In this document: in pieces, positions 41,264 through 48,828 of the stretch
Position numbering within the stretch: the first letter of the stretch is position 1
Layout of the letters: each line of letters opens with the position of its first letter
DNA from: Isoptericola cucumis
GTDB taxonomy: Bacteria; Actinomycetota; Actinomycetes; Actinomycetales; Cellulomonadaceae
Length of the DNA stretch: 64,000 bases
Assembly (NCBI RefSeq): GCF_014635665.1
Contig: NZ_BMDG01000010.1
Location: forward strand, 124,001 to 188,000
Direction: 5' to 3'
The notes under the pieces: generated by a model
What the model saw: only the letters and a program-made list of their open reading frames with translations
Told to the model about the DNA's origin: nothing
Database searches by the model: none
Program-made: the position numbers and the translations under genes

Positions 41264-41485
41264 CTCGCACGGGCACACCAGTGGACGCCCTCGATTCCGG
41301 GTGATGAGGACGTTGTCTCGGTGGCCGCCATATGCCGCCCAAGAAACGGTTGTCGTCCCACGATACCCGCACCCTCCGGCCCGCACCACCCTCGGCCACG
41401 CGCCCCGGCGGAGGCGTCCGTCACAGACGGATGCCGGGAACGACGCACGACGCACCGCGGCCCGAGCGACCCCTGGAGGCACGAC
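41264..41485 (-). other. Intergenic stretch between rplL terminator and rpoB promoter
   Basis: About 220 nt with no supported gene. A second weak -10-like TATCGT is seen on the minus strand near 41361, without a good -35. Nothing else with clear structure is visible. Confidence 0.3.
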
Positions 41486-42920: not shown

Positions 42921-45482
42921 TCACAGGACGAGCGGGCCGAAGCAGACGAGCGGGACCGGCTCGGGCTCGTCGGCGACCGCGCGCGCGAGCGCCTCCCCCG
43001 GTCGCAGCCCGGCGCGCAGGCCCTCGTGGAGTGCGGGCATGACCCGCACCGCGACGTCGTCCCGCAAGGGGGCGACCGCCGCGATCACCGCCCGTGCGCC
43101 CATACGCAGCAGCACGCTCGTCAGACCGAGCGGCTCCCCTCCGTGCCGGATGCTCACCGACCCGACGTCACAGGCGGACAGCACCACGACCGACCGCGAG
43201 AGATCGCGGCCGTCGAGCTCGTGGGCGAACAGCGGACCGTCGGCCAGGAGGAGGCTCGAGAACATCGGGTTCTCCGGCTCGTGGGTCCCGTGGGCCGCGA
43301 CGTGGACTACCGGCGCCCCCTCGATGGCCTCCGACACGGCCGCGCACGTGGCGGCGGGCCCGGTCAGGAGCCGGGCCCCGCTCCCCCAGGCGGCCGCGAC
43401 CTGCTCGGCCTCCGTGACCGCCTGGCCCAGACCTGCCCCGGCCACCGAGAGCCCCGGACCTGGCGTCCAGTCGGCCTCGCCGCGGGCGACCCACGAGTTG
43501 ACCACCGTCGACAGCCCACGTCGGGACGGCAGGGCCGCCCACGGCAACGACACCAGCCTGTCACGGGCCGCGACGTAGACGGGCCGTGCGCCGATGTCGA
43601 GCTGCCCGAGCAGGAGCCCGTCGAGACGTCCCAGAGCGGCCCGCAGCGAGGCAAGCACCACCTCCCGCATCGCGGTCGGCAGCAGAGGGTTCGCCAGGAC
43701 CTGCTGGTCGGCGCGGACCCTCCGCGCGAGCTCGAGGTAGGGCGGCAACGGACCGAGGTCGATCAGCCGTGCCCCGGCCCCGTCGAGCCGGATCACGCGC
43801 ACGCGGCCACCGTTCATCGTCAGGTTCAACACGACCCGGTCGGAGCCGGCGGCCCGGAGCTCGGCGCGCAGCGCCCGGGCCGACGCGGGGGTGGGAACGC
43901 CCCCGTCTCCGCCGGAGTGCCAGGTGCGCTCCCTCGCCTGGTGCTGCAGCTGCCGAGCGTCCCGGTGCAGGCCTGCTCGGGCGCCCATGTCCCGGCCCGT
44001 GGCCTGCTCGTCGGCCCTGAGCAGCCTGGCGCGCTCCATGAGGCGTCTTGCCGACACCACGAGCTCCGCCGTCCGCGGGTCGTCCGGCGGCCGCACCCTG
44101 CCGGAGCCGGCGAACGTCGCGCGACCGCGTTCCAGCGCGTCGAAGAGCGGGTCCGGGGAGGTCGAGAGCAGTGCCGCGTCGATGTCCACACCCTGGAGAC
44201 GGATGCCGTGCGCGGCGGCGCCGGTCACCGCCTCGACAGCGCCGAGCTGCTGCCGCTGCCCGGCGAGAAGGCGGTATCCCCGCCGTACCGCCGTGAGTCC
44301 CGAGCGCCGGTTCCCCTCACCGAACGTGCAGAGCGCGGCGACGACCTGCGCCCGCACGCGTGCGCCGAGCGCCATCCCCGGTGCCGGGGGGAGCATGCGC
44401 AGCTGCGCCCGCGACTCGTCGAACCTCCCGGCGCGGGCCCAGGCCTCCGCGGACAGCAGCCGGGCGTCGATGAGGATGCGTTCACCGCCCGGTTCGGCGC
44501 TCGCCCGCTCGCCGAGCTCCTCGGCGGCACGTGCCACCCGCAGGAGCTGAGCTCCCGAGGTGTCCTCGACGATCATGCCGAACCGCGCGTCCAGACCCAC
44601 GAGCTCGGCGCGCAGCGCGATGACACCATGGCCCGCCCGGCGGGCCCGGTCGCGCACCCGCCCGGCGAGCGCCTGCGCCTCGGCGTGCCGGGCGAGGCCC
44701 ACGAGGCACCGTGCCTGCTCGAGCTCCGCGTCCAGCAGGTCGCGCGCTCCGCCCGTGGCCGCCAGGATCTCCGCCGCCCTCCGGAGCGCGGACTCCGCAT
44801 CGGTCAGGAGCCCCGCCTCGTACAGCACCGCAGCCTTGTCCATGAGCCCGACGCCGGCGTGCTCCGGCGGCGCCGCCTCCGCAGCCCCGTCCATCGCACG
44901 GAGCGCCGCCGGCAGGTCGCCCCCCAGGTACAGGGCGTACCCGAGGTTGTGCTCGGCCATCGGGACGAGCTGCCCGTCACCGACCGCCCGCGCGATCTCC
45001 AGGCATCGTTGGAGGTCGTCGACCGCCTCGTCGATCTCGCCGACCTCGAGAAGCAGGGAACCGCGGTTGATGAGCACCGGGAGCATCTCGGTCTCGTCCA
45101 CCAAGCCCTCCAGCGCCGTGTCGAGCTCGCGCCGTGCGCCGTCGTGGTCTCCCGAGCGCAGGAGCTGCAGCCCGAGGCTCGCGTGGACGAGCGCGACCAG
45201 CTCGGCGCTGCCGGCGCGCAGCGCCATCGCACCCGCGGCGGCGAGCTTGGCGAGGACGACCTCGCGGTCGGCGCCCAGCTCTCCCTCGCACGCGGCGATC
45301 CCCACGAGCACGCGGGCACGAAGGGCGGCGACCTGGCCGGCCGCGACGTCGGCATCGAGCGCGTCGAGCCGCGCCAGCACGCCCCGGTAGCGATCGAGCG
45401 CGCCGGCGAACTGCCGGTGAGCGCGCGCGTGCGCCCGGATCTGGTCGACTTCGCCTCGGACGGCCGCCAGCGCGTCGCTCAT
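42921..45482 (-). CDS. TPR-CHAT protein (caspase-like protease domain)
   Basis: An 853-aa cytosolic protein. Residues ~30-450 are helical TPR-like repeats (for example [20 protein letters not shown] and LLINRGS-type pairs), a scaffold for sensing or binding partners. The C-terminal ~280 residues form a CHAT domain, a clan CD caspase-like peptidase: His731 in [19 protein letters not shown] and Cys771 in [10 protein letters not shown] give the dyad. No signal peptide or transmembrane helix is seen. It is last in the sigma / 171-aa / subtilisin / CHAT unit, 17 nt after the subtilisin. The family includes TPR-CHAT effectors of bacterial conflict systems; its target here is unknown, and proteolysis is inferred from the intact dyad. 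Confidence 0.85.
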
Positions 45483-45499
45483 GCCTCACCCTTCGTGCA

Positions 45500-47302
45500 T
45501 CACCCCGGGGTGGACACGTCGCCGTGCGACAGGCCTCCTGTCGCCCCTGAGATGGCTCGCCAGACCGCCGCCACTCGCTCCGCGGCGCCCCCGTCGGCCG
45601 AGCCGACCGATCCGGCGAGCGTAGCGTCGTCGCCCCGGGCACGCCGGTCCCGGTCCGCGAGCAGCTCGCGGGCGATCTCGCCCGCGAGGACCGGTGCCGC
45701 GAACGACGTGCCGCTCCAGGTCGCGAAGCCTCCCTGGAAGCCCTCGGGGTCGATCGTGGAGCGGACCGCGTCGTCGTAGCGCTCCTTCAGCCGCACCGAC
45801 GGTGTGAGCGGGCCGTCGAGCGTCTGCGGGACGGTGCTGACGACGGCCGCCCCCGGCCGGGTGCACGTCACCCAGGGACCGTCGTTGCTGAAGAGCGCGG
45901 TCGTCCCGTCGGGGTTCGTCGCCCCGACGGCGAGGATCGGCGGCCGGTTCTCGCTCGTGTCGCGCGGGACGGTGATCCGCGGTGGGGTCGCGCGCCGGTC
46001 GACCTCGGGGGCGAAGGCGGCCGGGTACTCGGGCCGTGTCTCGCCGTCGTTCCCCGCGGCGACCACGACCGCCACACCCTCCTCGCGCAGGCGCGCGAGG
46101 ACCTCCGAGAGCGGGTGATCCCACTGCAGGTCCTCGGGCTGCTCGTGGTAGTAGCCCAGGGGCAGGACCACGACGTCGATCGCGACGCTGTCCGGTTCGC
46201 CCGCGAGGCCGCGGCGGTGGAACCGGAGGAGCCGTCGCAGGGACTCGATCACCTCGGACTCGACCGCGGACCCCGACCCGCCGACCGCGCGGACCGGCAG
46301 GAGCAGCGCGTCCGGGCAGGTCTGGTGGACGATCCCCGCGATGAACGTCCCGTGCCCCGCGACCGGGTCCAGCGGTCCTGTGAGCGGGGCCGTGCTCGCG
46401 CCGCCGATCTCGGCGTCCTCCTCGGGCAGGCGCGGCGTCGGGTACGTACCGATCGGGCCGTCCGGGAGCGAGGCCCCGCGGATCACCACGCCGTTGCCGT
46501 CGTCCGACCCGGACCCGTAGGTCCCGAACCACTCGTGGGTCCCGATGCCCGTGTCGACGATCGCGACCACGGGACGCGCCCCGCCGTCCGGGGTCCGGAA
46601 GTGGTCGCCGTCCTCCCGCACGCGCCGCGGCGGCGGCGACCCGAGCCTCGCCACCGGGGACCGGCCCCCGCTGCCCGGGGCGCCGTACTCCCGCATGCCG
46701 TGGGCGGTGAAGGGATGGGTGGTGAACGGGTGCGTCGTGAACGGGTGCGTCGTGAACGGATGCGTCGTGAACGGGTGCGTCGTGAACGGATGCGTCGTGA
46801 ACGGGAGCGCCGACATCACGTGGTCCAGGTTGAGCCGCCACGGCACGGACTCGTCGCGGGAGTCCGCCTCGAGCACCTCCCAGGCGTCGGGCTGGACGTC
46901 CGGACGGTCGGCGATGAGCCGCAGGACGAAGCCCTGGTCCTCGTCGACGAGGTCCAGGGGATCCGTGTCCGCGGACGCCTCTGCGCCCTGGCGGTACCTC
47001 ACCTCCACACCCAGGTGGCAGCCCTGGCTCCGCGCGGCGCGCTCGAACCCCGCGACCTCGGCGTCGTCGTCGGCGCTCGGGTCGAGCTGGAGGACCGAGG
47101 GCAGGTCCGGGGTGTCGTCCGGCCGACGGAGCCTTCCTCTGATCGGGTCCGGGAGCCCGCCCTGGACGAGGAGACGGTCGGCGACGTACCAGGTCGGCGC
47201 GACGTCACGCTGCCCGGGACGGCGTCGGACGGTGCTGGGGTCCAGGTATCGGACCGACGGGTCGGGCCTTCTGGGCGCCGGTCCTACGGGCGACTCGCTC
47301 AC
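45500..47302 (-). CDS. Intracellular S8 (subtilisin) peptidase with PFTTH repeats
   Basis: A 600-aa serine protease of the subtilase family without signal peptide. The triad is complete: Asp250 (VVAIVDTGIGTHEW), His317 (AGHGTFIAGIV) and Ser533 (SGTSFAAPVLAGE), with oxyanion Asn418 (AAGNDG). Residues 1-165 are an unrecognised N-terminal domain. Residues 167-201 are seven tandem pentapeptides (six PFTTH and one PFTAH) between that domain and the catalytic part, perhaps a flexible or cleavable linker. GTG 47302 follows GAAGGGGAG. Between a 171-aa protein and the CHAT protein in one unit, it may activate, or be activated by, the CHAT protease. Substrate unknown. Confidence 0.88.
   Translation of the reverse strand: MSESPVGPAPRRPDPSVRYLDPSTVRRRPGQRDVAPTWYVADRLLVQGGLPDPIRGRLRRPDDTPDLPSVLQLDPSADDDAEVAGFERAARSQGCHLGVEVRYRQGAEASADTDPLDLVDEDQGFVLRLIADRPDVQPDAWEVLEADSRDESVPWRLNLDHVMSALPFTTHPFTTHPFTTHPFTTHPFTTHPFTTHPFTAHGMREYGAPGSGGRSPVARLGSPPPRRVREDGDHFRTPDGGARPVVAIVDTGIGTHEWFGTYGSGSDDGNGVVIRGASLPDGPIGTYPTPRLPEEDAEIGGASTAPLTGPLDPVAGHGTFIAGIVHQTCPDALLLPVRAVGGSGSAVESEVIESLRRLLRFHRRGLAGEPDSVAIDVVVLPLGYYHEQPEDLQWDHPLSEVLARLREEGVAVVVAAGNDGETRPEYPAAFAPEVDRRATPPRITVPRDTSENRPPILAVGATNPDGTTALFSNDGPWVTCTRPGAAVVSTVPQTLDGPLTPSVRLKERYDDAVRSTIDPEGFQGGFATWSGTSFAAPVLAGEIARELLADRDRRARGDDATLAGSVGSADGGAAERVAAVWRAISGATGGLSHGDVSTPG
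46700..46804 (-). repeat. Seven 15-bp tandem repeats inside the subtilisin gene
   Basis: Unit CCGTTCACGACGCAY (minus strand) is repeated in frame seven times, encoding PFTTH. The five upstream copies are nearly identical and alternate CAT and CAC for His; the last two have diverged (ACCACC, ACCGCC). Copy number is likely to vary among strains by slippage without breaking the frame. Confidence 0.95.
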
Positions 47303-47414
47303 GTGCTCCCCTTCCAGGTGGCGCGCGTCGGTGGACGCGCGGCGGGGCGGCGGTGTGGTGCCGCGCCCAGGACTGCTCAGGTCGTCGAGGTCAGATGTGA
47401 CGTCGTCCGGGAGA

Positions 47415-47930
47415 TCAGAGCTCGATCACCGGAGTGGCGACGGTGACGTCGTCACCGCCGGCCAGGTGCACGAGCAGGCTCGTCGGCCCACGATCGACGG
47501 CGGAGAACGCGAAGCGACCGTCGGCATCGGCGTCGGTGGTGCGCTCGCCCCCCGGCTGGCGCAGCTCCACCGTGAGCGTGTCGGCCGGCGCGACCCAGCC
47601 GTCGACGCGCACGTGCGCGCCGTCGTCGTCCGCGGACAGGGCGATCATGACCGTCAGCCGTTCGTGCGTGAACGTGATGGTGCGCGCCTCGAGCGGTGCG
47701 GCGTCGCCGCGCACGGAGCCCGCCGGCGCGGTGATCTGCTGCAGCTCCATCACCTCGGCCTCGAGCCGGGCGAGCGTCATCGCGAACAGCGACCGCTCGA
47801 CGAGGCTCTCCGGCACCGGGTCGGTGGCGCGCACGGCGCGTCCCAGCCGGTCCAGCAGCGCCACGTCGACGTGGTCGAGGGCGTCGTCCTCCCCGGGCAC
47901 GGGCGTGCTTCCTGCGTCCTGCCTGCTCAT
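47415..47930 (-). CDS. 171-aa partner protein, unknown function
   Basis: Not recognised. The first ~65 residues are charged and helical (VALLDRLGRAV, LFAMTLARLEAEVMELQQI). Residues ~85-171 look like a beta-sandwich with an ERTTDADADGRFAFSAVDRG turn, reminiscent of carboxypeptidase-regulatory or transthyretin-like domains. There is no transmembrane helix and no HxxxCxxC zinc motif, so it is not a classical anti-sigma factor, although its place directly behind the sigma gene (ATGA overlap) suggests a regulatory partner. It precedes the subtilisin by 112 nt. Confidence 0.7.
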   Translation of the reverse strand: MSRQDAGSTPVPGEDDALDHVDVALLDRLGRAVRATDPVPESLVERSLFAMTLARLEAEVMELQQITAPAGSVRGDAAPLEARTITFTHERLTVMIALSADDDGAHVRVDGWVAPADTLTVELRQPGGERTTDADADGRFAFSAVDRGPTSLLVHLAGGDDVTVATPVIEL

Positions 47931-48562
47931 GTCCACGAGGCCTCCCCCTGCTCCGTGAGGACGGCGCGCAGCTTCGCCAGGCACCGTCCCCGAGTGGCAC
48001 CGATGCTTCCCACCGGCATGCCGATCGATGCCGAGATCGCCTTGTAGTCCGGGCGGTCGGCGAGCGAGACGAGCCGCAGCAGCTCCTGGCACCGCTGCGG
48101 GAGCCGCTTGAGCGACGACCACAGCAACCGGTCGCGCTCGTCGCGCAGCACCTCGTCCTCCGGCCCCGGGCCGAAGTCCGGCAGGGCCGCAGCTCCTTCC
48201 GTCACGTCGTCGGGCAGCTCGGTGCGCCGCCGTGCGTCCGTGCGGTCCTTGCGCACCGCCTGCCACGCGGCCCGGCGCGCCGTGACCAGCAGCCACTTCA
48301 GCACGGCCTTCGGCTCCGCGATGGTGTCGGCGTGCCGCACCAGCGCCGCCCAGGTGGACTGCACGACGTCGTCCGCGACGTCCCGGTCGGCTCCCTGGGC
48401 CCGCACCGTGTGCCACAGCAGCGGGGTGGCCTCGCGCACGAGGTCGGTGAGGGCGTCGGTCCGCCCCTCGCGGTACTCCAGCAGCGCGCGGGCGGCCCGG
48501 TCCCCCAGGCTCTCCTCCGCGTCGCGGGCACCGCCGAGCGGGTCGTGGCTGGTGGGTGACAT
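47927..48562 (-). CDS. ECF-like RNA polymerase sigma factor
   Basis: A 211-aa sigma-70 family protein with region 2 (DRDVADDVVQSTWAALVRHA and VLKWLLVTARRAAWQ) and region 4 (LLWSSLKRLPQRCQELLRLV, then DYKAISASIGMPVGSIGATR), no region 1 or 3, hence ECF type. ATG 48562 is chosen since GAGGTGCG lies upstream; earlier ATGs at 48670 and 48739 would add an unstructured stretch. It overlaps the 171-aa gene by 4 nt (ATGA) and heads the protease unit, so it probably controls these genes or couples a signal to them. No anti-sigma gene of known type is adjacent. Confidence 0.86.
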   Translation of the reverse strand: MSPTSHDPLGGARDAEESLGDRAARALLEYREGRTDALTDLVREATPLLWHTVRAQGADRDVADDVVQSTWAALVRHADTIAEPKAVLKWLLVTARRAAWQAVRKDRTDARRRTELPDDVTEGAAALPDFGPGPEDEVLRDERDRLLWSSLKRLPQRCQELLRLVSLADRPDYKAISASIGMPVGSIGATRGRCLAKLRAVLTEQGEASWT

Positions 48563-48790
48563 TGCTGGTCGCACCTCACGAGGGCTCGTCGATTCGCCGG
48601 GGCTACCTTGCCCCGCAGCCTTAGAGCCTACGGCGTGCGCCGACGACGCACTGCCGGGTCGCGTCGTCATGCGGGGTCTCCCTCCGGGCGCGTGCCGGTG
48701 CGGTGTGCTCGTCATCGCACGGTAGGGAGCGTGGTCCACGGGCCCTGATACACGCCGTCACCACCGGATCCGTCGTCGGTCCCGGGGACG
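48563..48790 (-). other. Upstream region of the sigma-protease unit
   Basis: About 230 nt between the rplA terminator and the sigma gene. A TATCAG hexamer on the minus strand near 48746-48751 could be a -10, but no matching -35 and no clear ECF-type promoter pair is seen. Confidence 0.3.
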
Positions 48791-48828
48791 ACGACGGCCC
48801 GGCACCCTCGCGGGTGCCGGGCCGTCGT
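48791..48828 (-). terminator. Terminator after rplK-rplA
   Basis: ACGACGGCCCGGCACCC (48791-48807) pairs perfectly with 48812-48828 across TCGC, a 17-bp stem 32 nt beyond the rplA stop. It insulates the ribosomal genes from the sigma-protease island. Confidence 0.85.

Follow-up and report, generated by a model that had tools for sequence, protein, structure and literature searches.

The 64,000-nucleotide stretch of Isoptericola cucumis DNA analysed here (the window; contig NZ_BMDG01000010.1, positions 124,001–188,000) contains a module of four minus-strand genes between the ribosomal protein genes rplA and rplJ. They encode an extracytoplasmic function (ECF)-type sigma factor, a 171-residue protein (p171), an S8 (subtilase) protease and a TPR-CHAT protease; open reading frames and Pfam matches confirm these four genes as an earlier note on this DNA had described them. 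The sigma factor (211 aa, 47927–48562) matches TIGR02937 (E 4.8e-18) and Pfam Sigma70_r2 (E 1.6e-7), and its gene is coupled through an ATGA junction to that of p171 (47415–47930). The only Pfam match of p171 is a sub-threshold one to CarboxypepD_reg (20.8 versus 32.3 bits), and the protein is predicted to comprise two helices (residues 20–36 and 43–61) and an Ig-like beta sandwich; we propose it as a sigma partner or inhibitor. The S8 protease (600 aa, GTG start, 45500–47302; Pfam Peptidase_S8, E 5.6e-17) has its catalytic domain at residues 242–545 (45668–46579), with D250, H317 and S533 as catalytic residues. A 17-nt gap (45483–45499) separates it from the TPR-CHAT gene (853 aa, 42921–45482), whose product matches Pfam CHAT (E 4.3e-27) and TPRs. 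The helical TPR solenoid of this protein, which we propose as the array reader (see below), spans approximately residues 48–438 (44169–45341, limits taken from predicted helices), and the catalytic region matched by Pfam covers residues 685–836 (42975–43430), including H731 and C771, which are invariant across 63 aligned CHAT proteins. The ATGA coupling, the 17-nt gap and the intact catalytic residues of both proteases had all been pointed out in the earlier note, and all are present.

For structure prediction, alignments of 65 of 74 p171 references and 62 of 92 CHAT references were used, with the window protein placed first in each. The CHAT model (predicted local distance difference test score 91.7) matches Csx29 in Foldseek (8eey_B, E 1e-12, template modelling (TM) score 0.41/0.46), which is consistent with a TPR-CHAT fold. 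The model also resembles separase, DdvA and, over the TPR part, Rap, with low to moderate TM-scores throughout.

The module was compared across 179 loci, nearly all fetched for a CHAT or p171 match, with a few genomes represented twice; L131 (a filler) and L202 (same genome as L100) were left out of the counts. A further 80 titled loci overlap the analysed ones and were kept outside the counts. The sigma, p171 and CHAT genes occur together in 86 of the 92 loci from the family (Cellulomonadaceae), in line with the earlier expectation that the genes travel together; the exception is the subtilase, which is replaceable. Among these 86 core loci, 73 also contain an S8 gene, 11 an S1-type protease without S8, and 2 neither. 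The core is likewise found in 70 of the 87 loci from other families (66 with S8, one with S1 only, three with neither). This comparison shows a conserved core of sigma factor, p171 and TPR-CHAT protease, associated with a second protease of either S8 or S1/NAL1-like type. One branch labelled Cellulomonas lacks the S8 gene; there, a divergent protease of ~520–650 aa, with sub-threshold Trypsin_2 and NAL1-type matches, lies in the rplA–sigma gap and bears PFTE or PFTQ arrays. Such a trypsin/NAL1-like gene stands divergent to sigma in the place of S8 in L065, L067–L071, L074–L077, L091 and many of L271–L297, and many of these loci have promoter-like elements back to back. Further variants include L081, L085–L088 and L123, where sigma and an array-less S8 are inverted and accompanied by a distant CHAT protein, all still inside the rplA–rplJ interval, and Promicromonospora and Antribacter loci with two CHAT genes in tandem and an array-less S8 (L241, L246–L249, L252, L254, L257, L258, L260, L262, L266).

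Ribosomal genes flank 65 of the 86 family core loci on both sides and 7 on neither side, with contig or fetch ends concealing some, compared with one of the 70 core loci from other families. As family loci mostly lie between rplA and rplJ and other-family loci elsewhere, this position mainly reflects lineage, and the module reaches beyond it. CHAT-protein relatives were detected at E ≤ 0.001 in 140 of 200 family genomes (131 of 184 of good quality), some of them weak paralogues. For p171, relatives occur in 85 of 396 genomes sampled from the order, and a sample of 396 from the phylum gave 39. Titled loci at the ribosomal position come from Isoptericola, Krasilnikoviella, Cellulosimicrobium, Oerskovia, Promicromonospora, Actinotalea and Cellulomonas, as well as from contigs of metagenome-assembled genomes labelled Jatrophihabitans, Frankiales and Pseudonocardiales. 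On these other-order contigs (L290–L292, L296) the module adjoins rplJ, and in three of them rplA too; the position may predate the family or result from transfer, or these contigs may be mislabelled.

Two features of the window had been overlooked in the earlier note, a tandem array in the S8 protein and a promoter-like element ahead of the module. The array (residues 167–201, 46804–46700, minus strand) consists of six PFTTH units and one PFTAH unit. S8 arrays lie ahead of the catalytic domain, flanked by an LDHV-type and a GxGG-type stretch. Arrays over threshold were found in 98 of 146 S8 proteins versus none of 2920 shuffled copies, and in the controls in 2 of 171 CHAT, 0 of 161 p171, 0 of 172 sigma and 0 of 294 proteins of four ribosomal families. 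Removal of one duplicate and of acidic low-complexity runs left 96 S8 arrays, with 64 distinct rotation-normalised units of 5–9 residues (six residues in 79 arrays), for example PFTTH, PFTSH, PLTASH, PITMGH, PYSTPL, PMYAGH, NPFHST, PYWDPV, GYGDGV and NPAYQG. The second protease thus often carries an array whose unit, as these comparisons show, is near-identical within a protein and different between lineages. Neighbouring copies in the 96 arrays differ by 958 synonymous and 35 nonsynonymous codon changes (expected synonymous share 0.24, from a previous set combining S8 and S1 arrays). Since silent differences are many and other differences few, the codons point to selection that probably keeps one identical unit within each protein. 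The S1 arrays are looser, with ~295 synonymous versus 169 nonsynonymous differences (row sum, earlier array set). The window genome has one CHAT match and five S8 matches besides the module S8; four of these five genes were read within the fetched stretch and showed no array over threshold, and the fifth was not located by motif. In L132 and L134, a single cluster contains several p171, S8 and CHAT genes, with a different array unit in each S8.

Of the protein regions compared, the TPR region of the CHAT protein tracks the array unit most closely. Unit distances were compared with distances of protein regions by partial rank correlation, controlling for sigma and p171 distance. A single S8 gene together with a single long CHAT gene is present in 123 loci, 90 of which have arrays; 89 were used after removal of one acidic low-complexity case. 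The correlation is highest for TPR residues 61–300 (0.575), followed by the S8 catalytic domain (0.46), the mid region (0.40), TPR 301–440 (0.38), the S8 N-terminus (0.17) and the CHAT catalytic region (0.13), and TPR 61–300 exceeded every other region in 200 of 200 subsamples. As none of 300 label permutations reached the observed value for any region, only the ranking of the regions is informative. The same region leads in the gene order sigma-p171-S8-CHAT (62 loci; TPR 0.32, next 0.20, CHAT catalytic 0.02) and in the order S8-sigma-p171-CHAT (22 loci; 0.26, 0.20 and 0.15). In the latter, sigma and p171 separate the array from the TPR gene, so physical linkage alone fails to explain the ranking. 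These comparisons suggest that the S8 array and the TPR region may mediate docking between the two proteases, and they give no direction to the activation of one protease by the other put forward in the earlier note. For the 11 S1-array loci, P[FY]T[EQ] units fill 52 of the 55 top-five nearest-neighbour places by TPR distance (mid 39, p171 32, TPR 301–440 31, CHAT catalytic 25, sigma 23); we do not count this result as independent evidence, because at rank one sigma and mid likewise give 11/11, and the loci seem to belong to a single branch.

The promoter-like element GTATCAGGGCCCGTGGACCACGCTCCC is located at 48725–48751 on the minus strand and is proposed to be recognised by the sigma factor of the module itself. 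Among 76 upstream regions, the commonest 9-mer is a TAGACTCGG-like one (20 of 76), which underlies the possible second promoter noted further below. A loose pattern (GTATC, a gap of 14–17 and a pyrimidine-TC motif) has 185 matches in 200 loci versus 59 in shuffled DNA, clustered ahead of sigma, ahead of a leading S8 and, facing both ways, between sigma and S1. Of 156 core loci, 120 have the more defined GTATC-N17/18-CTC[CT] form ahead of sigma or S8, against 8 of 3440 shuffled sigma upstreams; ahead of the S1 protease it stands in 16 of 18 cases. In the window genome, the strict GTATCW-N16-CTCYY form has two matches, one at the module and one at the edge of another contig, and none in the reversed control. 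Among the matches listed, 95 of 121 family genomes have a match to the pattern, mostly few each, and in some of them (G007, G025, G058, G073, G085 and G104, for example) the module site is the only one.

Genes downstream of GTATC sites were called by codon-position score, as the longest open reading frame is unreliable at this GC content. A recurring further site lies ahead of genes for PF09994 (Tle1-like phospholipase) proteins, which are present in 31 of 121 family genomes. A locus was available for 30 of the 31 genes (L300–L303 and L319–L349 hold PF09994 genes), and in 20 of these 30 the element occurs within 260 nt upstream of the conserved protein-start motif, compared with 1 of 3000 shuffles. 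Under the strict form, allowing up to one mismatch, 13 of 30 have it versus 4 of 1500 shuffles; the single PF09994 gene of the window genome shows one mismatch to this form, and several Oerskovia-type PF09994 genes lack the element in the strict-form test. A promoter-like element is thereby shown ahead of the module and of the divergent S1 protease, and in many genomes also ahead of the Tle1-like hydrolase gene. Promoter-like sites were further seen ahead of a similar protein in two same-genus genomes (L315 and L316, the latter copy matching a GDSL-like lipase) and ahead of an animal-haem-peroxidase-type gene (L307).

We tentatively infer from these features a self-amplifying, protease-gated sigma switch in which a repeat code specific to each lineage docks the CHAT protein on the second protease, a reading that we regard as a serious possibility short of an even chance. 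In this switch, p171 would keep the sigma factor inactive until a stress signal switches the proteases on, whereupon p171 itself, or its hold, would be removed. The freed sigma factor would then direct transcription of its own operon and of the Tle1-like lipid hydrolase gene. The TPR solenoid of CHAT would bind the repeat units, thereby gathering several caspase-like molecules on the second protease for multivalent docking and co-activation, and the array would serve as a docking code, not as a CHAT cleavage site. The replacement of one protease by another with retention of a P[FY]T[EQ]-type motif counts in favour of this switch. The interpretation in the earlier note is thus supported in part: a circuit of sigma factor and protease is plausible, and the conserved upstream promoter-like element fits autoregulation.

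The array could more specifically embody a natural repeat-to-repeat code, which we hold with slightly greater reserve than the switch as a whole. The TPR superhelix would read the array on whichever second protease is present, and both sides would change together, giving a private docking code that insulates the switch of each lineage; the carrier would be swappable with the P[FY]T[EQ]-type motif kept. Designed binders based on superhelical matching embody the same idea of a repeat protein that reads a repeat peptide in register, as a passage of PMC10115654 describes; those are designed, not natural.

Several observations weigh against the protease-gated switch. The role of p171 as sigma inhibitor is suggested by adjacency and analogy, and a fold search with p171 gave no significant match (best E 0.01). 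Of the 156 core loci, 36 lack the promoter pattern; for the PF09994 count, the N17/18 spacing was relaxed post hoc, after the sequences had been inspected; and isolated sites away from the module weigh little because, among the matches listed, the reversed control is often equally frequent genome-wide. Arrays at threshold are absent from 48 of 146 S8 proteins, including those of the two-CHAT Promicromonospora loci, and the 958:35 ratio is an upper estimate because array detection favours similar copies. The value of 0.575 is inflated by deep clades (0.32 and 0.26 within gene orders), with shared ancestry not fully separable. Moreover, covarying columns show no enrichment at TPR groove positions (25 versus 127 columns, p=0.19), and in the nearest-neighbour test TPR 61–300 is best at the strictest cut-off only, with TPR 301–440 marginally ahead at two looser ones.

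Other explanations can be given for the same features. In the proposal printed for the actinobacterial ECF54 group (PMC8999054, section 3.3), the proteases degrade the sigma factor itself, which thus stays off until a signal blocks them, with no anti-sigma factor involved; according to that section, the proposal follows from carboxypeptidase, subtilase and CHAT proteins being constant neighbours. The gene content of the module fits this equally well, and the present data do not separate it from p171 acting as inhibitor. It assigns no role to a p171 that overlaps or abuts sigma and leaves the arrays unexplained, and we consider it rather unlikely. A second class of explanation concerns the array. 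RRNPP quorum-sensing receptors (Rap, PlcR, NprR) bind short peptides through TPR domains, and the array might be a peptide precursor, cut into units of 5–6 residues that act as TPR ligands within or between cells. The mostly six-residue, near-identical units, the TPR covariation with the unit, and the resemblance of the CHAT TPR part to pheromone-bound Rap (8rsv, TM 0.65 by target length) agree with this. The likeness to RRNPP receptors lies in a TPR proposed to bind short peptides and in the Foldseek match to Rap (predicted fold and covariation; groove test p=0.19). They differ in that the repeat of the module is embedded in a protease, not in a small propeptide, and the proposed reader is itself a protease. 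In addition, a common inter-unit cleavage residue is not evident in the unit list, and no export signal was seen on S8 by eye, without a prediction tool, which makes a peptide precursor doubtful to our minds. We are equally doubtful that the array acts simply as a linker or a region of self-cleavage, in which any unit could be expanded by slippage and nothing but flexibility or spacing would count. Its location between two conserved stretches before the catalytic domain, its variable copy number and its absence from some S8 proteins would suit a linker, whereas the excess of synonymous over nonsynonymous differences argues that the letters matter, and an unrelated S1 protease carries a similar motif.

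CHAT proteases and lipases are effectors in known defence systems. An abortive-infection module, in which the caspase-like protease and the lipase kill infected cells, would fit the Tle1-like gene that is often preceded by a matching promoter-like element, and a passage of PMC12799240 reports caspase loci with TPR and Ig-like parts. Over much of the family, however, the module is mostly fixed inside the ribosomal cluster (the 65 loci above), unlike mobile defence genes. Moreover, PADLOC returned only generic or weak matches ('subtilase' at 26.7 bits and weak BovA, IetS and DpdI), none of them to a system-specific model. The conflict or phage-defence role suggested in the earlier note is therefore unsupported, and we consider such a function improbable, more so than any of the explanations above.

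The gene content of the module is not new, because the ECF54 review already describes this neighbourhood: an actinobacterial sigma factor with carboxypeptidase-type, subtilase and CHAT neighbours (PMC8999054, citing Casas-Pastor 2021 and Huang 2015). The module shares these neighbours, with the carboxypeptidase-type match of p171 remaining sub-threshold (20.8 versus 32.3 bits); the comparison was one of gene neighbourhood. The ECF54 passage of that review mentions no array, promoter, inhibitor or ribosomal position. In the Csx29/Csx30/CASP-sigma system, as described in a passage of PMC10028731, a TPR-CHAT protease frees a sigma factor by cutting its inhibitor, which makes it the nearest worked precedent for the proposed switch. 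In this type III-E Craspase and in the module alike, a single locus brings together a sigma factor, a TPR-CHAT protease and one more protein; this third protein is Csx30 in Craspase and p171 in the module, which adds a second protease with an array. No CRISPR effector was seen in the module, with no dedicated search made. One of the best structural hits of the CHAT protein is the anti-sigma protein DdvA (PDB 8rw5, 8rot; E ~1e-13), but with TM-scores of 0.24–0.33; DdvA is membrane-bound according to the entry title, a membrane part not being evident in the CHAT protein. Other caspase or protease systems appear in passages of PMC8195603, PMC7159879 and PMC12799240. A search of open-access papers gave no title on the arrays, the promoter or the ribosomal position, and in that literature the S8 array, its S1-type replacement with PFTE/PFTQ, the unit–TPR covariation and the GTATC-N17-CTC[CT] element were not seen. 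If the switch is real, ECF54, known mainly from gene neighbourhood, would gain a testable partner, promoter and target gene, and the module might be a CRISPR-free counterpart of TPR-CHAT sigma release. It would also be a naturally occurring case, solved in dozens of matched pairs, of a repeat protein that recognises a peptide repeat, and the 64 units with their partner TPR domains would form a ready specificity test set.

Minor features of the locus and its products complete the description. The 17-bp terminator reported on the rplA side is a hairpin with a 17-pair inner stem (48788–48828, ends approximate, minus strand; −42.9 kcal/mol) that has no T tail and was not picked up by the terminator scan at the rplA–sigma gap. 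An Rfam search gave two matches far under gathering scores (E 0.9–1), and a sigma70-promoter scan gave none. TIGR02937 (sigma70-ECF) is the sole NCBIfam model at cut-off among the matches listed (25 of 52 families). Identities as Csx29 for the CHAT protein (NF041237, 15.1 bits, cut-off 300) and as type VII mycosin for S8 (TIGR03921, 58.6 bits, cut-off 278.75) were set aside. Upstream of rpoB, the sequence GTATCGTGGGACGACAACCGTTTCTT (41341–41366, minus strand), identical in L253, matches the loose pattern only and may be unrelated. Nearer the sigma gene than the promoter-like element, TAGGCT (48625–48630, minus strand) is, in our reading, a possible −10 of a second, ordinary promoter.

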